Assembly (NCBI RefSeq): GCF_004193175.1 | Contig: NZ_SAUH01000001.1 | Location: 3,743,001 to 3,807,000 of the forward strand | Direction: 5' to 3' | Length of the DNA: 64,000 bases | DNA from: Streptomyces sp. RFCAC02 | GTDB taxonomy: Bacteria; Actinomycetota; Actinomycetes; Streptomycetales; Streptomycetaceae | In this document: in pieces, positions 22,868 through 30,951 of the stretch | How the letters are laid out: every line of letters begins with the position of its first letter | How positions within the stretch are numbered: position 1 is the first letter of the stretch | The notes under the pieces: model-generated | What the model saw: only the letters and a program-made list of their open reading frames with translations | What the model was told of the DNA's origin: nothing | The model's database searches: none | Made by a program: the position numbers and the translations under genes

Positions 22868-24487
22868 ATGCGACAAGCGCCCTGGCGTCTCTGCGCCCTG
22901 GCCGTGGCGGCCCTGACGATCGTCGTCGCCGCGTCCCTGGTGATCGCCGAACAGGGCGGTGACGGGACGGGTACCGAACGTTCCGGTCCGGCCGCCGCCA
23001 CGCCCCCCGAGGCTTCCCAGTCCCCCGACCCCGACGACCTCCCGGACGGTCCGCGCGGCGAGCCGCGCGTCATCCCCGCCGTCCGTTCGTTCGACGCCGC
23101 GGACGGCGACGGATGGGCGCCCGCCGAGGGCGTCACCCGTGTCGTCGCCGACGGCGATGGCCCGCTGGACGACGAGGCCGACCGCCTCGCCGACGAGATC
23201 GGCGCCGAGCGCGCCGACGACGGCGCCCGCGCCGGCGACGTCGTGCTGAAGCTCGACGACGACGCCGACACCGGCGGCGAGGGCTACCGGCTCGTCACCG
23301 AGGACCACCGCGTCACCATCACCGGCCGCGCGCAGGCCGGCGTCTTCTACGGCACCCGCACCGTCGCCCAGGCCGTGCGCGGGGCCGGCGGCCTGCCCGA
23401 GGGCACGGCCTGGGACCGGCCCGACCGGCCGCAGCGCGGGCTGCTGCTCGACACCGCGCGGAAACCTTTCTCCGCCGACTGGATCAAGGCCAGGCTCACC
23501 GAAATGGCCGATCTCAAGCTGAACCAGCTCCAGCTCCACTTCAGCGACGACCAGGGCTTCCGCGTGGCCAGCGAGAGCCACCCCGAGGTCGCCTCGGACG
23601 ACGCCCTCACGAAGGACGAGGTCGAGGACATCCTGCGGCTCGCGCGCGACCTGCACATCACGGTGATCCCCGAGATCGACTCGCCCGGGCACCTCGGGGC
23701 CGTGCTGGCGGCGCACCCCGAGTTCGCGCTGAAGCGGGCGGACGGCACGGTCACCGAGGGGGCCGTCGACATAGCGAACCCGGAGGCGGGCGAGCTGATC
23801 GACGACCTGCTGCGCGAGTACGCCGAACTGTTCCCCGGCGACTGGGTGCACGTGGGCGGTGACGAGTACGTCGCCTCCACGGTCAGCGACCCCGAGGGCA
23901 CCTACCCGGACCTGGCCAGGGAGGCGCGCGACCGGTTCGGCGACGACGCGGGCGTCCGCGACCTGGCGACGGCCTGGATCAACGACCGCGCCGACGCCGT
24001 GCGCGACGCCGGGAAGACCCCGCAGGTGTGGAACGACGGCATGCACGCCGGCGGCACCGTGAAGCCCGACGAGGACCGGCAGGTCACCTACTGGACCGGC
24101 CGCGAGTACGGCGCGCGCGAGCCCGTGGAGTACCTGGAGGGCGGCTGGCCCGTGCTGAACCACAGCTCCGAGTACCTCTACTACGTGCTCGGCGAGCCGA
24201 ACGACTTCACCTACCCGACCGGCGAGCGGATCTACGAGGAGTGGACACCGGCCGTCCTGCGCGGCACCGAACCGGTGCCGGAACGTTTCCGCGACGCGGA
24301 ACACATACCCGGCGCGCGGTTCGGCGTCTGGTGCGACCTGTCGGACGCGCAGACCCCCGAGCAGGTGGCCGACGGCATCCGGATGCCGCTCGCAGCGCTC
24401 TCCCAGAAGGTCTGGGACCCGGGCGAGCCGAAGCTGTCGTGGGACGAGTTCAGCGCCCTGGCGGGGGAGGTCGTCCCGGCACGGTGA
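22868..24487 (+). CDS. Beta-N-acetylhexosaminidase (GH20)
   Basis: A 539-residue exported enzyme that removes terminal GlcNAc from chitobiose, other chitooligosaccharides or wall glycans. The N-terminus is a signal peptide or anchor (about 8-28) followed by an Asp/Pro-rich linker. The GH20b-like domain (about 65-185) leads into the catalytic barrel with 'RGLLLDTARKPFSADWIK', 'HFSDDQGFR', 'IPEIDSPGHLG' and the catalytic Asp-Glu pair in 'WVHVGGDEY'. The gene's last 24 bp and its 3' flank are duplicated about 4.7 kb downstream, marking the edge of the variable locus. Confidence 0.93.
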   Translation: MRQAPWRLCALAVAALTIVVAASLVIAEQGGDGTGTERSGPAAATPPEASQSPDPDDLPDGPRGEPRVIPAVRSFDAADGDGWAPAEGVTRVVADGDGPLDDEADRLADEIGAERADDGARAGDVVLKLDDDADTGGEGYRLVTEDHRVTITGRAQAGVFYGTRTVAQAVRGAGGLPEGTAWDRPDRPQRGLLLDTARKPFSADWIKARLTEMADLKLNQLQLHFSDDQGFRVASESHPEVASDDALTKDEVEDILRLARDLHITVIPEIDSPGHLGAVLAAHPEFALKRADGTVTEGAVDIANPEAGELIDDLLREYAELFPGDWVHVGGDEYVASTVSDPEGTYPDLAREARDRFGDDAGVRDLATAWINDRADAVRDAGKTPQVWNDGMHAGGTVKPDEDRQVTYWTGREYGAREPVEYLEGGWPVLNHSSEYLYYVLGEPNDFTYPTGERIYEEWTPAVLRGTEPVPERFRDAEHIPGARFGVWCDLSDAQTPEQVADGIRMPLAALSQKVWDPGEPKLSWDEFSALAGEVVPAR

Positions 24488-24601
24488 CGGCCCTGCCCCC
24501 CAGCACGGAACGGTCCCGGCGGCACCAGCCACCGGGACCGTTCCCTTCGTAGCGGCACCCCCCCCGGATTCACCCGCACGGGGGAACGCCCCCAGAAGCG
24601 G
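24464..24601 (+). repeat. Direct repeat A, copy 1 (hexosaminidase 3' end plus flank)
   Basis: The last eight codons of the hexosaminidase gene and about 110 bp of flank recur at 29144-29237. The copies differ by a few bases, and copy 2 lacks the ~41-bp terminator-hairpin segment. This is the left border of the duplicated hexosaminidase-cargo-sigma arrangement. Confidence 0.85.
24507..24544 (+). terminator. Hairpin terminator of the hexosaminidase gene
   Basis: Perfect 13-bp arms GGAACGGTCCCGG / CCGGGACCGTTCC with a 12-nt loop, 19 nt after the stop codon. Its bases are precisely what is missing from the second copy of this flank at 29144-29237. Confidence 0.85.
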
Positions 24602-24664
24602 CGGGGACCCCGGTCCGAGCCGTACGTCACGGCCTTCCGGGTACCCGAATGATCCCGTTCGCCG

Positions 24665-25828
24665 TCAGTCGAGGCGGTGCTCCCAGTTCAGCTTCTGAGC
24701 GCCCTCGATCCAGTAGCGGTGCGACGCCTGGGTGACGCGGAGACGTACAGCGTCGATCTCAGGGCTCCCCGCCGCCCGCCACGCGACGAGTGCGTCCTCG
24801 ATCCTGTCCCAGAGCGCCGCGGGGCCGCCCTGGCGGACCGTCCATCCGGCGCCGTCGGCGATGAACTCCGCGAAGGACTCCCGATCGGGATCGAAGACAT
24901 ACAGCAGCCGCGTCCCATCGCTCCGAGCGGCACGGACGAGTTGCGCGCCGGGCGCGGCGAGCTGGGTGAGGAAGGCCGGCATCCAGTCGTCCAGCACGGT
25001 GGGCGGCACCTTCGTCCCCCTCTCACTGTCCGGATAGGCCGTCCGGGCGGACAGGTCACCGGAGACCGGCACCACGGCCTGTGCCCGAGCGTGCATGAAC
25101 GCGGACCTGCCGACGATCCGCCCTTCGGCGTTGCCGTCGCCGTCCACGGTGAGCCTGGCCAGGCCTGTTCCGTAGGGCCAGGAACCCACGGTGCTCAGAA
25201 TGACGCCGCCGGGCTTGGTCTGCCGAACCCAGGAGTGCGGAACGCGACGCACGGCGCAGGTGGCGATCACACGATCGTACGGCGCGTTCCGCGGGTGACC
25301 GAGGAGACCGTCCCCGGTGACGGTCCACGTCGAGAAGCCGGCCGTCTCGAGAGCGGCGTCCGCCCGCTCTGCCACCGCGGGGTCCACCTCGATCGTGGTC
25401 ACGTCGTCCTCACCGAGGAAGTGGCACATAAGGGCGGTGGAATAGCCGGTGCCGGTGCCGACCTCCATGACGTGGTGGCCGGCTTTCAACCCCAGGCTTT
25501 CGATCATGCGGACAACGGTGGTCGGTGTGGTGGATGAGGATGTGGGTACGCCTCGGATGGGGCCATCGGCCTGGTCGGCGGTCAGGTGGCCGTCGAGCTG
25601 GGTCGTGAGCGTGTCGCCGGTGTACACGATCCCGAGCCACTCGGCCGGGTCGGTACCGACCGCGGTGACGGGGCGCCATGCACCGCCCTCGTCGATGAAG
25701 ACGCCGGGGTGGAGGAACAGTTCCCGGGGCACGGCTTCGACGGCGGCGCGCAGCCACGGGGACGTGAGGGCTCCCTCGTCCGCCAGCGCGGCGGCCAGAC
25801 GGCGCCGCTGGGATGCCGAGTCGTTCAT
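24665..25828 (-). CDS. tgmC: PIMT-like methyltransferase of an ATP-grasp RiPP (graspetide) system
   Basis: 387 residues. The PCMT-like core (about 1-240) has the acceptor-loop motif PTSSSTTPTT (95-104) and SAM-binding HVMEVGTGTGYS (119-130). A ~150-residue C-terminal extension is typical of RiPP-associated members. In the fuscimiditide pathway the homologous enzyme methylates an Asp of the cross-linked peptide, which then closes to an aspartimide; the same role is inferred here. It overlaps the ATP-grasp gene by ATGA, forming a tight precursor-ligase-methyltransferase operon. Codon bias is less extreme than in flanking core genes. Confidence 0.85.
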   Translation of the reverse strand: MNDSASQRRRLAAALADEGALTSPWLRAAVEAVPRELFLHPGVFIDEGGAWRPVTAVGTDPAEWLGIVYTGDTLTTQLDGHLTADQADGPIRGVPTSSSTTPTTVVRMIESLGLKAGHHVMEVGTGTGYSTALMCHFLGEDDVTTIEVDPAVAERADAALETAGFSTWTVTGDGLLGHPRNAPYDRVIATCAVRRVPHSWVRQTKPGGVILSTVGSWPYGTGLARLTVDGDGNAEGRIVGRSAFMHARAQAVVPVSGDLSARTAYPDSERGTKVPPTVLDDWMPAFLTQLAAPGAQLVRAARSDGTRLLYVFDPDRESFAEFIADGAGWTVRQGGPAALWDRIEDALVAWRAAGSPEIDAVRLRVTQASHRYWIEGAQKLNWEHRLD

Positions 25829-26784
25829 GCGCCATCTCCTTGGGTGAGCAGGTCAGCGAAGGCGGCGGACATCGGGAGGCCCGTCTCCGTCTCCAGCCAC
25901 CCCCACTGGCCGTTCGGGTTCAGTTCCAGCCACCAGTGCTCGCCTTGCCGATCCACGGCGAGGTCGAAGCTGCCCGACACCAGGCCGAGGGACTCCAGGT
26001 AGTGGTGCAGAGCCTTGTCCACCCGGTGGGGGAGCCGTTCGACGGTGTAGGTGAGGGCGCTGTAGTCCTTGCGCCAGTCCAGCAACTCGGAGTCGATCCG
26101 TACGGCGAACGTCCGGTGACCGACGATCAGAACCCGAAGGTCGGCGGCCTTGTCGACGCGTGCCTGGAACAGGTGCGGAGCGACGCGCACGCTGTCGTCG
26201 ATCTCGTCGGCGGTCACGGGGTCGGCCCAGCCGGTGACCGGTACGCCGTTGCGTGTGTACGGGGTCCAGCGCAGGGTTTTGGAGATCACATCTCCCTGCG
26301 CCGTGATGAATTCACGGGCCTCGTGAGGACAGTTGGTGACCAGGGTGGGTGGGACGGCGAGGCCGAGCCGCTGAGCGAGGGCGAGCTGAGCCGGTTTGTA
26401 GTCGGCCGCGGCGTTGCGGAGGGGGTGGTTGACCCAGAGGGGAGAGTCCGAGGCGAAAAGACTCCCCCCGAGCCCGTAGCGGACGTGCGCGGCCGCGAAC
26501 CGGGCGTCGTCCGGCTCCAGGTCCGGGAACGCGGGCCATTGGGGACGGCGCCAGTACACCGCTCTGACGCGAGACAGGTCGGCAGTCCTCGACGGAGTGC
26601 GTACCTGCCGAGCCGCGGGCGCCGAGCAGATGCCGAACCTGGCCGAGATCGTCAGGGTGGTGCCGATGTCGCGGGGGTCGAACCTCATCACCGGCACGTC
26701 CCGCCGGTTCAGCTCCATGAGCACCATGTCGGCGGTGAGGTCGTCCGCCGCGGTGACCACCAGTACTGGTCGCTCATCGGCCAT
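25825..26784 (-). CDS. tgmB: ATP-grasp peptide ligase (graspetide maturase)
   Basis: 319 residues of the ATP-grasp RiPP-maturase type. It has an N-terminal pre-ATP-grasp fold (PVLVVTAADDLTADMVLMEL), a central nucleotide-binding domain (ISKTLRWTPYTRNG; LFQARVDKAADLRVLIVG) and the C-terminal metal/ATP site 'GSFDLAVDRQGEHWWLELNPNGQWGW'. The enzyme activates Asp/Glu side chains of the precursor and joins them to Ser/Thr or Lys, giving macrolactone or macrolactam rings. The start lies 2 bp after the precursor stop; the 3' end overlaps the methyltransferase. The cytoplasmic substrate is the 26787-27047 product. Confidence 0.9.
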   Translation of the reverse strand: MADERPVLVVTAADDLTADMVLMELNRRDVPVMRFDPRDIGTTLTISARFGICSAPAARQVRTPSRTADLSRVRAVYWRRPQWPAFPDLEPDDARFAAAHVRYGLGGSLFASDSPLWVNHPLRNAAADYKPAQLALAQRLGLAVPPTLVTNCPHEAREFITAQGDVISKTLRWTPYTRNGVPVTGWADPVTADEIDDSVRVAPHLFQARVDKAADLRVLIVGHRTFAVRIDSELLDWRKDYSALTYTVERLPHRVDKALHHYLESLGLVSGSFDLAVDRQGEHWWLELNPNGQWGWLETETGLPMSAAFADLLTQGDGA

Positions 26785-26786
26785 CG

Positions 26787-27047
26787 TCAGTCCTGCTGGG
26801 AGTCCTGGTCGTGACCCTGATCGTTCGCGGAGTCGGAGTTCGTGGTGGTCGAGGTCTCCGTGCCCTTGCTGGTTCCGTGCTTCCCCATCTCGACCACGTG
26901 GCCGGTGCGGTCGCGGAAGACACCGAGCTGCGTGTCGGGGTCGATGGTGACCGAGACGTGCGGAAGGCGGACGGTGGTCGGATAGGGCGCGAGACGGTCG
27001 GCGCCCCAGGGGCGGATGGCGGTGAACCGTTCGGTCGTGGTCGTCAC
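26787..27047 (-). CDS. tgmA: Graspetide precursor peptide (ATP-grasp-modified RiPP)
   Basis: 86 residues. The leader carries the family's RPWG (12-15), 'VTIDPDTQLGVFRDRTG' and EMGKHG (53-58) signature of ATP-grasp targets. The C-terminal core (about 59-86) alternates hydroxyl donors (T59, S60, T63, T65, S66, T67-T69, S71, S73) with carboxyl acceptors (E64, D72, D76, D80, D82, D86). That is the composition expected for several omega-ester rings in a stem-loop. Ring topology cannot be read from sequence. The upstream gap contains palindromes that may bind the neighbouring XRE regulator. Confidence 0.85.
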   Translation of the reverse strand: MTTTTERFTAIRPWGADRLAPYPTTVRLPHVSVTIDPDTQLGVFRDRTGHVVEMGKHGTSKGTETSTTTNSDSANDQGHDQDSQQD

Positions 27048-27086
27048 AGTGGCTCCTGATGCTCTTCGGCGATCCGAGACCCGGGT

Positions 27087-27143
27087 GTTCCGGGGAACGC
27101 CCGGGGCCGTGTGACAACCGTGCCGGTGAACGCAGCGTCACAC
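27087..27143 (-). promoter_or_regulatory. Palindromes upstream of the graspetide operon
   Basis: A 12-bp palindrome GTTCCGGGGAAC (27087-27098) and an inverted repeat GTGTGAC (27109-27115) / GTCACAC (27137-27143) occupy the gap between the XRE regulator stop and the precursor start. They are candidate operator elements; no clear -10/-35 pair was placed. Confidence 0.4.
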
Positions 27144-27171
27144 CAACAGGATTGTGAGTAATTGCGCGCGT

Positions 27172-28023
27172 TCACCCGAGGGAGCGGACGGCGGATTCGA
27201 TCAGTCGCCTCGCATCGATGCCGTAGACGGCCATCCTTCCCAGCTCCCGGAACGCCTTGGCGTAGTCGGTGATCTCCCGGGGCTGCCTGATGTTGATCTC
27301 AGCCGTCAGCGTCTCCACAACCACGTGCTGGCCGTCGAACATGTAGAAGCCTTCCAGCGGCCAGATCACCCGTCGGGCGCTGAATGGAATCACTCCGAGT
27401 GAAATACTGACCAACGGCAGCGCCGTGAGGAGGCGATTCAGTTGGTCGGCCATCACCTGCGCATCGCCGATCACACACCGCAACACCCATTCCTCCAGCA
27501 GTACCACGAACCTGTGGTTGCCCTGGTGGAGAAACCGACCGCGCGCCACCCGTGCGGCCACCGCGTCGGCGACGTCGTCGGGCGTGCCCTGGAAATCGGT
27601 GATCCGTTGCATGAGCGCGGTCGCATAGGCGGGGGTCTGGAGGAACCCCGGCACGCCATTGGAGGCGTAAACGCGGCACACCTCGGCGTTCTCGTGCAGT
27701 GAGGTGAAATCCTCCTGTGTCCTGCGCATACCGTTGCGGTGAAGACGGCGCCACCCCATGTACATCGAGTCCACCGCCCGAGCGGTGGCGATGAGGTCCG
27801 CTGTCTGGTCCTCGGCGTCACAAGCGGCACACCAGGCGCGGATGTCGGCGTCGGTGGGCGCGGCCTCGCCCTTCTGCATGCGAGTGGTCTTCGCCGGATG
27901 CCAGCCGCACCGGGCGGAGAGTTCCCTGCCGGTGAGCCCGGCGTCCATGCGGAGGTGCATCAGGCGGACGGCCAGGGCTTCACGGGCAGCCCGGGCGCTG
28001 GATGAGGGTGATGGTGAGGGCAT
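27172..28023 (-). CDS. XRE-family regulator with DUF5753 domain
   Basis: 283 residues. A helix-turn-helix (about 19-60, 'RMDAGLTGRELSARCGWHPAKTTRMQKG') is followed by the DUF5753 domain with its hallmark 'VYASNGVPGFLQTPAYATALM' and 'HFVVLLEEWVLR'-like core. These proteins control secondary-metabolite or developmental genes in streptomycetes. Here it lies directly upstream of, and co-oriented with, the graspetide operon, its likely target. The usual DUF397 partner is absent; a DUF6879 gene lies upstream instead. Confidence 0.85.
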   Translation of the reverse strand: MPSPSPSSSARAAREALAVRLMHLRMDAGLTGRELSARCGWHPAKTTRMQKGEAAPTDADIRAWCAACDAEDQTADLIATARAVDSMYMGWRRLHRNGMRRTQEDFTSLHENAEVCRVYASNGVPGFLQTPAYATALMQRITDFQGTPDDVADAVAARVARGRFLHQGNHRFVVLLEEWVLRCVIGDAQVMADQLNRLLTALPLVSISLGVIPFSARRVIWPLEGFYMFDGQHVVVETLTAEINIRQPREITDYAKAFRELGRMAVYGIDARRLIESAVRSLG

Positions 28024-28041
28024 GGGGCCGTTGCAATGAGG

Positions 28042-28569
28042 TCAGACGGTGAACTGCCCGTGGTCGATGCCCCGTTGCCACACTGACTCGAACGCCGACG
28101 CGCACAGTCCCACGGTGGCGGGGTCCTCGCTGAACATGTGTCCGGCCCAGTCGCCGTCTCCGGTGAACCAGTGGAAGAGGACCCGGCGTCCGTCGATCAG
28201 CCAGAGGTCGTTGCCGGGCAGTGCGATGTCCGATGCCCGGCTGCGCGGAAGCCAGCGAACCTGCTCCCCGAGGGCGACGTTGACCGGGGTCAGGGCGTAC
28301 TCATAGCGGATGTAGTCGGTTACCGGCTCGGACACGATCCGTGCCCTGCGCATGGCCACGCCTCGTCCCACGGCCTCCCGCACCAGCGGGGCCCAGCCCT
28401 GCCAGAACGCCGAGTCGGGGTCGAGGTCTGCCTCACCGGTCTTCATGAAGCGCTCGAAGCTACTGGTCTCGTCCCCGACGCTGTAGATGTCGCGCATCTC
28501 CAGATGCGCGGCAGTGAACCGGGCCGACTTCAGCAGGTCAGCGAAGTCCGGCGCGCCGTTCCGCGACAT
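28042..28569 (-). CDS. DUF6879-family protein
   Basis: 175 residues with the DUF6879 pattern: 'SARFTAAHLEMRDIYSVGDETSSFERF', 'EPVTDYIRYEYALTPVNVALGEQVRWLPR' and 'LWLIDGRRVLFHWFTGDGDW'. Function is unknown; the family often accompanies XRE-DUF5753 regulators in actinomycetes and may form a regulatory pair with them. It lies 18 bp upstream of the XRE gene and overlaps the preceding small gene by 32 bp. Confidence 0.8.
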   Translation of the reverse strand: MSRNGAPDFADLLKSARFTAAHLEMRDIYSVGDETSSFERFMKTGEADLDPDSAFWQGWAPLVREAVGRGVAMRRARIVSEPVTDYIRYEYALTPVNVALGEQVRWLPRSRASDIALPGNDLWLIDGRRVLFHWFTGDGDWAGHMFSEDPATVGLCASAFESVWQRGIDHGQFTV

Positions 28570-28801
28570 CGCAGGCCTCCCTCAGAAGCGGCACCATGCG
28601 GGCCGGAATGCGGATCACGGTCTCGTGCGGGGGAATGCCGATGTGGTGCCCCGACACCCACTCGGTCCCGCCGATCCGGGCCTTGAGCAGCTCGCCCGCT
28701 TCCTCGCCCTGGAGAACGAGGCCGGCTTCCTCGTCGACCCACACGGTCGGTGAACCACCCCCGGTCGTCTCGGGGTCGATTCCGATGAAGGTCAGTTCCA
28801 C
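28538..28801 (-). CDS. Small hypothetical protein, DUF6879-associated
   Basis: 87 residues from GTG 28801, chosen because GGAGGG stands a few nt upstream. 'SPTVWVDEEAGLVLQGEEAGELL' and 'HETVIRIPARMVPLLREACD' give it the look of the small acidic protein commonly found upstream of DUF6879 genes. No function can be assigned. It is the first gene of the minus-strand accessory block, and the repeated sigma-gene sequence starts only about 50 bp beyond its start. Confidence 0.65.
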   Translation of the reverse strand: MELTFIGIDPETTGGGSPTVWVDEEAGLVLQGEEAGELLKARIGGTEWVSGHHIGIPPHETVIRIPARMVPLLREACDVAERRAGLR

Positions 28802-28853
28802 GGTGCCCTCCAGGAGCCAGGTCGGTTGCCATATCCGCTTCCACGCACGTCGG

Positions 28854-29143
28854 ACAGCCGGGGCCGCCACCCCCCACAGGAGAGACCCCGGCTTTCTCGG
28901 GTCGTGGACCGGTCCTGTCCGTGCCCGCGTCTCCTACAGCGCCGGGGGCCTCGGATGCGTTACGCAGCGGATACGGTCGGGTGCGCCATGGATTGGCGTG
29001 GATCCGCAGCGTAGCGTTCTGCGCACTGAGACAGACGGCGGGCGGGACGTCACTGTGGCGTGGAGCCGCAAGGGGGGCGAGGGATGCTGGGCGCAGACAG
29101 CGAGTTGACCGCGGCGGTACGAGCGGCCCAGGCCGGGGACGAG
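28854..29143 (+). repeat. Direct repeat B, copy 1 (sigma-gene promoter and 5' end)
   Basis: About 290 bp repeated at 30129-30423, with roughly 20 substitutions and a few small indels by eye (about 93% identical). It contains the AGCCGGGG/CCCCGGCT inverted repeat, a TGCGTTACGCA palindrome, the sigma ribosome site and the first 20 sigma codons. It stops abruptly at codon 20, where repeat A copy 2 begins. Confidence 0.9.
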
Positions 29144-29167
29144 GGGGAGGTCGTCCGGGCACGGTGA
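29084..29167 (+). pseudogene. Chimeric remnant: sigma-factor N-terminus fused in frame to hexosaminidase C-terminus
   Basis: A 27-codon frame. Residues 1-20 (MLGADSELTAAVRAAQAGDE) match the start of the ECF sigma factor encoded at 30364; residues 21-27 (GEVVRAR) match the last residues of the GH20 hexosaminidase (GEVVPAR), including the stop. The sigma start region (GAGGGATG here, GAGGAGTG in the full copy) is kept, so the remnant could still be transcribed. It is a recombination scar rather than a functional gene. Confidence 0.85.
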
Positions 29168-29237
29168 CGGCCCTGCCCCCAGCACGGAACGGCACCCCCC
29201 CGGATTCACCCGCATGGGGGAACGCCCCCGGAAGCGG
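29144..29237 (+). repeat. Direct repeat A, copy 2 (hexosaminidase 3' end without terminator)
   Basis: Matches 24464-24601 from the GGGGAGGTCGTCC codons through 'ggattcacccgca' to 'gaagcgg'. A ~41-bp internal deletion removes the terminator hairpin, apparently between short CGG repeats. Transcription entering from repeat B copy 1 would therefore not be stopped here. Confidence 0.85.
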
Positions 29238-29316
29238 AAGGCCGGCCGCCGGTGCTTCCGGACAATCCCAGGTGGCTCATAGCTGTCGAGGGACCAAGCC
29301 GCTGCGGGGACGTGCG

Positions 29317-30096
29317 GTGGTCGATCTGCGGCTCGGTGCCTTCGACTACCGGGACAGCCTGCGCGAGGACCCGAGGATCACACAGCACACGCTTTACTAC
29401 GACATCCTCACCGCGATCGCCAACGGCGCCACCACGCCCAGCAGGATCGGCGCCGCTCTCGAACGTCCGCGCAACGCCGTCGCCCACCCGCTCGGGGTCC
29501 TGGAATCGACCGGTTACATCCGGCGGGAACAGGACATCCTCCGCGCCAGGCACCCCGTCATCACCCTCGCCGACCCGGTCATCCGCTTCAACCAGCTCAT
29601 CACCCTCCCGCAGGCCGCCGCCGTCGAGCAGGGCTTCGCCGGGCAGGTGTGGCAGCAGGCCGCCCCGACCTTCAACTCGAAGATCCTCGGGCCGCACTTC
29701 GAGGACCTGGCCCGCGACTTCACGCGTCGGTACGCCCACACCCTCCTGCCCGGCGGACTGCCAGGACCGGTCGGCACCACCGAGGTCGCCGACCGGGCCG
29801 CCGGGACCAGGCACGAGGTCGACGTCATCGCCCTGGCCGCCGGCGAGCGCCCGCAGACTCCCCGCGCGAGGATCGCGCTGCTGGGCGAGGCCAAGGCGAC
29901 CGCCGCCCGCCGGGGGACCGGTGACCTGCGACGTCTGGAACGCATCCGCGTCCTGCTCGCGGAACAGGGGCACGACACCGCCGGCACCACGCTGGCCCTG
30001 TACTCGCTGCACGGCTTCCACCCCGACCTGGTCGGCTCGGCCGGCCGCCGCGACGACGTACTCCTGGTCGACCTGCCCACCCTCTACGGCATCTGA
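29317..30096 (+). pseudogene. C-terminal half of an AAA/DUF234 ATPase-nuclease (N-terminal ATPase missing)
   Basis: About 260 residues match the C-terminal part of archaeal-type ATPases (ATPase_2/DUF234): a winged helix ('YYDILTAIANGATTPSRIGAALERP...LESTGYIRRE'), 'LADPVIRFNQLI', 'ILGPHFEDLARDFTRRY', and a PD-(D/E)xK-like nuclease core with D in 'HEVDVIALA' and E/K in 'ALLGEAKAT'. The ~200-residue P-loop domain that should precede it is absent; the gene begins at the edge of repeat A. GTG 29317 is the first in-frame start in the homologous part. Probably non-functional, although a free nuclease domain could still fold. Confidence 0.7.
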
Positions 30097-30128
30097 ACGA
30101 GGCGCCGGGCCGGCCGGGGCATGGGGAA

Positions 30129-30423
30129 ACAGCCGGGGCCGCCACCCCCCACAGGAGAGACCCCGGCTGTCGCGGGCCGTGGACCGGTGCTGTCCGTGCC
30201 CGCATCTCCTACAGCGCCGAGGGCCTCGAATGCGTTACGCAGCGGATACGGCCGGGTGCGCCATGGACTGGCGTGGATCCGCAGCGTAGCGTTCTGCGCA
30301 CTGAGACAGACGGACGGCGGGCGGGACGTCATCGTGGCGTGGGGCCGCAAAGGGGGGCGAGGAGTGCTGGGTGCAGACAGCGAGTTGACCGCGGCGGTGC
30401 GAGCGGCCCAGGCGGGGGACGAG
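30129..30423 (+). repeat. Direct repeat B, copy 2 (intact sigma-gene promoter and 5' end)
   Basis: The full-length partner of 28854-29143, running into the intact sigma gene. An 8-bp inverted repeat AGCCGGGG (30131-30138) / CCCCGGCT (30161-30168) and the palindrome TGCGTTACGCA are unchanged between copies. They are therefore candidate regulatory elements of the sigma gene. No other gene lies in 30097-30363. Confidence 0.9.
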
Positions 30424-30951
30424 CAGGCGTTCCGCGCCGTCTTCAGGGCCGTCCATCCGCGGCTGCTCGGCTATGTGCGCACCATCGTGGCCGAGCCGGA
30501 CGCCGAGGACGTGACGGCGGAGGCGTGGCTGCACATAGCGCGGGACTTACGGCGGTTCCGGGGGGACGCGGACCGGTTCCGCGGCTGGACGGCGACGATC
30601 GCGCGGAACCGCGCGCTCGACCACCTGCGGGCGCGCGGGCGCAGGCCGCAGGAGACCAGGGCCGACGAGGACGCGCTGGCCGCGCTGCCGGCCGCGAGCG
30701 ACACCGCCGAGGAGGCCATCGCGGCCCTCGGGACGAGCCGGGCGCTCGCCCTCGTCGCGGAGCTGCCGCACGAGCAGGCGGGCGCCGTGATGCTGCGCAC
30801 GGTCGTGGGGATGGACGCGCGGCGGGCCGCCGCGCTGCTCGGCTCGCGGCCCGGTGCCGTCCGCACGGCCAACCACCGCGGCCTGCGGCGGCTCGCGCAG
30901 CGGCTCGACCGCTTCGGGCGCGACGGCGGCGGGCTCACGGCGGCCGTGTAA
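30364..30951 (+). CDS. ECF-type RNA polymerase sigma factor
   Basis: 195 residues. Sigma region 2 (about 17-82) reads 'EQAFRAVFRAVHPRLLGYVRTIV...AEDVTAEAWLHIARDLRRFRGD...FRGWTATIARNRALDHLR'. Region 4 (about 125-180) reads 'LPHEQAGAVMLRTVVGMDARRAAALLGSRPGAVRTANHRGLRRLA'. It directs RNA polymerase to a specific promoter set. GTG 30364 has GAGGA just upstream. No anti-sigma gene is adjacent. Its first 60 bp and promoter are duplicated at 28854-29143. Confidence 0.9.
   Translation: MLGADSELTAAVRAAQAGDEQAFRAVFRAVHPRLLGYVRTIVAEPDAEDVTAEAWLHIARDLRRFRGDADRFRGWTATIARNRALDHLRARGRRPQETRADEDALAALPAASDTAEEAIAALGTSRALALVAELPHEQAGAVMLRTVVGMDARRAAALLGSRPGAVRTANHRGLRRLAQRLDRFGRDGGGLTAAV

Follow-up and report, generated by a model that had tools for sequence, protein, structure and literature searches.

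The window analysed here is a 64,000-nucleotide stretch of the Streptomyces sp. RFCAC02 genome (contig NZ_SAUH01000001.1), in which two different cargo segments stand in tandem between a gene for a GH20 beta-N-acetylhexosaminidase and a gene for an extracytoplasmic function (ECF) sigma factor. Both flanking genes are intact and lie on the + strand, the hexosaminidase gene at 22868..24487 (PF00728, E-value = 5e-43; PF02838) and the sigma gene at 30364..30951 (PF04542, PF08281). The order along the locus is the hexosaminidase gene with its end (H1), a graspetide cassette (cargo 1), a copy of the sigma start (S1), a copy of the hexosaminidase end (H2), a broken ATPase gene (cargo 2), and the sigma start (S2) opening the intact sigma gene. 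As the original prediction held, two different cargos are each bounded by a hexosaminidase end on the left and a sigma start on the right (H1-cargo1-S1|H2-cargo2-S2). The doubling of the flank ends is confirmed by five direct repeats, three on the sigma side (28854-29046/30129-30321, 94% identity; 29029-29077/30308-30356, 90%; 29070-29152/30350-30432, 89%) and two on the hexosaminidase side (24463-24500/29143-29180, 97%; 24559-24601/29195-29237, 95%). A search of the own genome with the S1+H2 stretch returned, besides the stretch itself, only S2 (93%) and the two parts of H1, and a dispersed or chance repeat is rejected on this ground. No inverted repeats pointing to transposition were found at the cargo borders, where the pairs present are hairpins and short low-quality pairs.

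The repeated ends contain little of the coding sequence from which they take their names. H1 (24463..24601, + strand) comprises the 3' end of the hexosaminidase gene and a downstream flank with a terminator-like hairpin at about 24506-24545; the fold computed for 24494-24560 is strong (-40.1 kcal/mol, z -5.8). H2 (29143..29237, + strand), the orphan counterpart, measures 95 bases against 139, and the 44 missing bases include the piece of H1 that forms this hairpin. H2 had been described as a partial hexosaminidase 3' end; a copy of that end it is, although just 25 coding bases (stop codon included) belong to the repeat, the remainder being 3' flank. Similarly, S1 (28851..29143, + strand) was rightly called a copy of the sigma 5' end, but it consists mostly of upstream DNA, containing a hairpin and a likely promoter, and of only the first ~20 sigma codons. 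Its counterpart S2 (30126..30423, + strand) likewise covers the upstream region and the first codons.

S1 and H2 meet at an illegitimate joint (29142..29143), where the present overlap is one base (29143). The joint preserves the reading frame, with 27 codons ending on the hexosaminidase stop, for which the chance expectation is one in three; the resulting mini open reading frame (ORF; 29084-29167) fuses the start and opening codons of sigma to the last hexosaminidase codons, perhaps by chance. Two words shared between the flanks lie near the joint. The 8-base word GGGACGAG ends exactly at the sigma side and is separated in H1 by 14 bases from the hexosaminidase side, and the 9-base word GGCGGGGGA is also close by. 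When breakpoints were drawn at random in three + strand flank genes, a shared word of at least 8 bases occurred within about 20 bases in 12% of trials and one of at least 9 bases in 4%, and a word placed like GGGACGAG in 0.3%. The sequence suggests microhomology at the joint, and we put it no more strongly because the words were looked for after the fact. The genome encodes Ku, and end joining is therefore available.

Of the 288 ungapped columns, 20 (6.9%) distinguish the two sigma copies, in accordance with the figure of about 7% that the original prediction had taken as a sign of two divergent alleles. That use of the figure is contradicted by the distribution of the changes. We aligned S1 and S2 with 12 relatives, namely the ten nearest plus loci L145 and L148, drawn from 94 loci of which some represent the same stretch. 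In the FastTree phylogeny S1 and S2 are sisters, with a branch of 0.093 on S1 and of about 0 on S2. With gaps counted, the differing columns look derived in S1 in 16 cases and in S2 in five, four being ambiguous. A relative-rate comparison using S. avicenniae as the outgroup assigns 12 changes to S1 only versus 2 to S2 only (p=0.013). Among the 156 columns invariant in the 12 relatives, S1 alone deviates at six and S2 alone at none. The start codon is ATG in S1 versus GTG in S2 and in all 12 relatives.

Changes in S1 fall alike on invariant (6/156) and variable (8/132) columns (p=0.42). Pairs of orthologues from different species show another pattern, with differences at 1/147 invariant versus 19/146 variable columns (L032/L034), 0/146 versus 29/147 (L037/L040) and 2/148 versus 29/145 (L033/L035); the closest pair, L033/L148, gives 1/148 versus 6/145, which is not significant (p=0.065). 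S1 thus behaves like functionless sequence, a dead copy decaying in place, and S2 is ancestral-like. The loss of the hairpin from H2 agrees with the decay of orphan copies seen in S1. Judged from these alignments, most of the divergence between S1 and S2 probably arose after the event that brought them together, and all of it can be so explained. A few per cent may nevertheless predate the event, since the 12 relatives are non-independent (L148 is almost identical to L033) and the counts are small. The argument for divergent alleles from the 7% is accordingly rejected, with the excess lying on S1 and invariant sites being struck, while two such alleles may still be part of the history. Nor does the locus prove a merger of two divergent strains.

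The left border of S2 is marked by a conserved hairpin (30126..30172, + strand), of which S1 retains a decayed copy (28851-28897). Its 12-bp stem covaries and its 20-base loop, CGCCACCCCCCACAGGAGAG, is nearly invariant, deviating at one base in one of 52 aligned sequences (53 distinct sequences minus L083 and L088, which are out of register, plus the window copy). Both sides have changed in 7 of the 12 stem pairs, with 52 such cells versus 19.4 in shuffles, and 90.9% of cells are paired against at most 57% once the partner is slid; further pair types within the stem are fewer than in the shuffles (8 versus 11.7). Of the 80 named Streptomyces loci, which are the best of 428 relatives, 68 carry the hairpin, 67 of them on the + strand. 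In these 67 the start of an ECF sigma gene follows at 202-554 bp in 50 and at 1.2-1.75 kb in 15, and was not found in two; in the four loci of the longer class that were inspected, an ORF of more than 1 kb lies between the hairpin and the sigma gene. With up to three mismatches allowed, the own genome holds the hairpin only as these two copies. No Rfam match was obtained at E-value ≤ 1, and a 15-base piece of the loop had no match in a literature text search.

The hairpin allowed the interval to be measured in relatives: its length was taken between the hexosaminidase match and this hairpin, with which the sigma region begins. This was possible for 67 of the 80 named loci, which have both elements with the hairpin on the + strand; of the other 13, 12 have no hairpin match and one (L099) has the hairpin on the other strand. 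The interval is at most 300 bp long in 33 loci, 300-1000 bp in three and longer than 1000 bp in 31. The interval between hexosaminidase and sigma is an insertion hotspot of Streptomyces. By this measure it is empty in the near relatives S. sp. 8K308, S. hainanensis, SBT349, S. radicis, S. specialis, NBRC 109706 and MP131-18, and is occupied by other DNA in S. avicenniae, S. sedi and S. triticirhizae. S. avicenniae is the closest named relative for the hexosaminidase itself (78% identity in the best segment). As judged by eye, S. sedi (L033, 11600-13100) and S. triticirhizae (L035, 6120-7240) appear to share a related cargo, shortened in the latter, and the L148 interval is similar in length to theirs.

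A search for the hairpin on the + strand with up to five substitutions revealed no second flank copy in any of the 67 measurable relatives, and two exact copies of the loop were never found in one relative locus. The double arrangement in related genomes, which the original prediction had named as refuting evidence, was thus not found in these loci; the relatives have either an empty interval or a single filled one. The prediction had also supposed that modules were stacked here without an integrase, and in Pfam and NCBIfam scans none of the window's seven cargo proteins was identified as an integrase or transposase, the relatives' intervals lying outside the scan. The locus thus has the features of an integrase-free hotspot, with variable cargo between conserved flanks and no such mobility gene in the window's cargo.

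Cargo 2 (29238-30125) contains a broken ATPase gene (29251..30096, + strand). Its C-terminal half exhibits 87% identity to residues 225-469 of a 470-aa ATPase-family homologue (P0003), and a second, 32-residue piece upstream corresponds to residues 129-160; residues 1-128 and 161-224 are absent. The ATPase_2 domain (PF01637), which should form the N-terminal part of a functional protein of this family, is matched in P0003 at residues 6-166, a match that is itself weak (25.1 bits, cut-off 33.2), and cargo 2 does not include that domain. Cargo 2, the "ATPase-nuclease" cargo of the original prediction, is therefore a fragment that lacks the N-terminal ATPase portion as well as an internal segment, and it is not a working module or allele. 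Elsewhere in the own genome a single further homologue was found, with 40% identity. In S. varsoviensis (L082, 14667-15039) the C-terminal remnant of another member of this ATPase family, with 86% DNA identity over 373 bp, lies inside the same hexosaminidase-to-hairpin interval, which is there 8.5 kb long.

Cargo 1 (24602-28850) is a predicted graspetide cassette, that is, a cassette for a ribosomally synthesized and post-translationally modified peptide (RiPP) of the ATP-grasp class, of the SAV_5884 type, and it scores as intact. Its genes all lie on the - strand. Three of them score above curated cut-offs: a PIMT-type methyltransferase of ATP-grasp RiPP systems (24665..25828; TIGR04188, 484.6 bits, cut-off 380), an ATP-grasp peptide maturase or graspetide synthetase (25825..26784; TIGR04187, 408.7 bits, cut-off 350) and an 86-aa graspetide precursor peptide (26787..27047; TIGR04186, 103.8 bits, and PF14408, 85.9 bits, both with a cut-off of 25). 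The others are a HTH_31/DUF5753 regulator (27172..28023; PF19054, PF13560), a DUF6879 protein (28042..28569; PF21806) and a small ORF of 87 aa (28538..28801) with no NCBIfam or Pfam match at E-value ≤ 0.01. In eight fetched genome stretches the conserved part is only precursor, ATP-grasp and methyltransferase, and the DNA-level match starts at or beside the methyltransferase stop codon (24664-24668) in six and at 24701-24705 in two.

This graspetide core is patchy in the genus, the ATP-grasp being found at E-value ≤ 1e-115 in 40 of 392 genomes, the own genome counted. Within the stretches fetched from eight genomes, the core was not found between hexosaminidase and sigma, and the intervals measured in the named loci contain neither the ATP-grasp nor a close methyltransferase. 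Altogether no cassette was found at this interval in the 80 named and 14 fetched loci, nor by a comparison of coordinates by eye among the matches listed. S. bohaiensis (L177/L060) has a graspetide cassette with a 70% identical ATP-grasp about 8 kb beyond its hexosaminidase gene as seen from sigma; L060 is the only named locus with the ATP-grasp nearby.

We tentatively prefer, at somewhat under an even chance, an origin by homology-facilitated illegitimate recombination, that is, one-sided homologous recombination in a flank combined with an illegitimate joint, by which the resident cargo was kept downstream. The resident chromosome would have carried the now broken ATPase gene between hexosaminidase and sigma. 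Linear DNA from a related strain, with hexosaminidase, graspetide cassette and sigma start in this order, would have entered and undergone pairing and ordinary homologous recombination inside the hexosaminidase gene. Its far end, broken about 20 codons into sigma, would have been joined illegitimately to the resident hexosaminidase tail, adding the new cargo and leaving the old one downstream, and the orphans S1 and H2 would have decayed afterwards. In this account we infer the donor, where the homologous crossover took place and the order of arrival. The interval would then be a place that gains and loses accessory genes with no integrase involved.

Several observations count for such a capture. 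The two decayed copies, S1 and H2, are those that adjoin the joint, and S2 is ancestral-like. A broken cargo 2 beside a cargo 1 intact by score fits an older resident and a newer arrival. The patchy graspetide core, the hotspot, the lack of a second flank copy in 67 relatives and the Ku gene all agree with it. As expected of homology-facilitated illegitimate recombination, the joint has little or no homology, and the added DNA is missing at the unmodified locus, with no cassette in the measured intervals and 33 of the 67 empty.

Other observations weigh against it. No strain was found that carries the graspetide cargo alone at this interval and could represent the donor or the recipient. The homologous crossover is not visible, as the identity of the hexosaminidase gene to six relatives, followed in 150-base steps, has no clear break by eye. 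The joint in its present form is almost without overlap. When S1 and S2 are taken together as a pair, their differences fall at 7/156 invariant versus 13/132 variable columns (p=0.10), neither clearly even nor uneven. S1 and S2 need not have differed when they were joined, and a duplication within the strain followed by an exchange of cargo fits the flank data equally well.

Such a duplication is the strongest competitor, although we consider it rather unlikely. Unequal exchange between sister chromosomes, at short words shared by the hexosaminidase tail and the sigma start, would first have doubled the interval; later one copy would have gained the graspetide cassette by insertion or homologous replacement, while the other held, or decayed to, the ATPase remnant. 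Each step of this route is common. The words GGCGGGGGA and GGGACGAG at the joint are of the kind required, and the divergence between S1 and S2 is explicable from a starting divergence of zero. However, words of at least 8 bases arise by chance near two random breakpoints in about the 12% of trials given above, and at least one additional event is needed. S1 and H2 would moreover have been free to be hit, yet both cargos, we infer, stop at the same functional borders.

The model offered by the original prediction, in which a fragment from hexosaminidase end to sigma start closes on itself through an S|H joint and enters by one homologous crossover in H or S, is unlikely. It explains the exact order observed with one joint and one crossover, and GGGACGAG, which H1 and S2 both carry in the same orientation, could excise such a circle. 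But it leaves just ~95 bp (H) or ~290 bp (S) for recombination, and the 7% divergence put forward in its support is probably for the most part decay after the event. A one-sided anchor could draw on a whole flanking gene of homology, so that a linear fragment anchored in this way needs less than a circle. Marginally less probable again is the mirror image of the preferred capture, with the anchor in sigma, the graspetide allele resident and the ATPase interval as the newcomer. Its anatomy would be identical, and the remnant in S. varsoviensis indicates that ATPase cargo does visit this interval; the broken cargo is nevertheless cargo 2, and cargo 1 is intact by score. An assembly join merging two haplotypes, named with the original prediction as a possible source of the repeats, is highly improbable, because the copies differ by 7% and by small deletions, S1 deviates at sites conserved in relatives, and the repeats sit inside a 6.10-Mb contig of a two-contig assembly.

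The steps of the capture that we favour have a published parallel, which we count in its support. For the effector-immunity arrays of the type VI secretion system (T6SS) of Vibrio cholerae, sequential displacement by homology-facilitated illegitimate recombination has been proposed (Kirchberger et al. 2017, PMC5361080; also PMC8189183). In the available sections of that work, as here, a new module is placed beside a conserved anchor and the old one is kept downstream with partial pieces. The V. cholerae cargo is a toxin-immunity pair and the anchor the upstream part of the effector module, whereas here unrelated genes lie between two conserved flank genes; and, unlike in the arrays as described in those sections, the far flank of the donor (S1) and the near flank of the resident (H2) are both still visible at the joint. 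Another parallel is offered by the orphan modules of Rhs and contact-dependent inhibition (CDI) systems, which are displaced modules with short core-gene pieces in front; unlike in those systems, a polymorphic toxin gene is absent here. Both systems are named in the same sections of PMC5361080.

Hotspots without integrases have been attributed to double homologous exchange in the core genes on either side (Oliveira et al. 2017, PMC5635113). According to the sections of that study at hand, they share with our locus variable cargo between conserved genes and no recognised mobility gene; yet double exchange replaces cargo, while here cargo was added and one illegitimate joint is required. Double exchange therefore accounts for the hotspot itself and not for the addition. 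Accessory insertions at hotspots are also described for conspecific Streptomyces strains, and the authors explain them by chromosomal DNA transferred through conjugation (PMC6722414); a stacked interval with split flanks is not met in the available portion of that report. The available portion of a paper on Streptomyces end joining (PMC5124664) does not describe such stacking, and literature searches on homology-facilitated illegitimate recombination and Streptomyces gave nothing on such stacking, as judged by title.

A bolder view, to which we give only a slight chance, is that the interval permanently serves as a stacking site independent of any integrase. Through short words repeated in the two flank genes, S|H joints would form again and again, by excision of circles or capture of linear conjugated DNA, and cargos would line up one behind another as the earlier ones decay, similar to an integron array that lacks an integrase. 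More modestly, the type of recombination has already been proposed for other bacteria, and this locus would be a readable fossil of one such accident. It is readable to the base, with the illegitimate joint and all four flank copies persisting and the decay of the orphans giving a relative age. Homology-facilitated illegitimate recombination, proposed for the weapon arrays of Vibrio, is suggested by this locus to stack natural-product cassettes in Streptomyces as well, and the interval between hexosaminidase and sigma offers a defined place for tracing the exchange of such cassettes.

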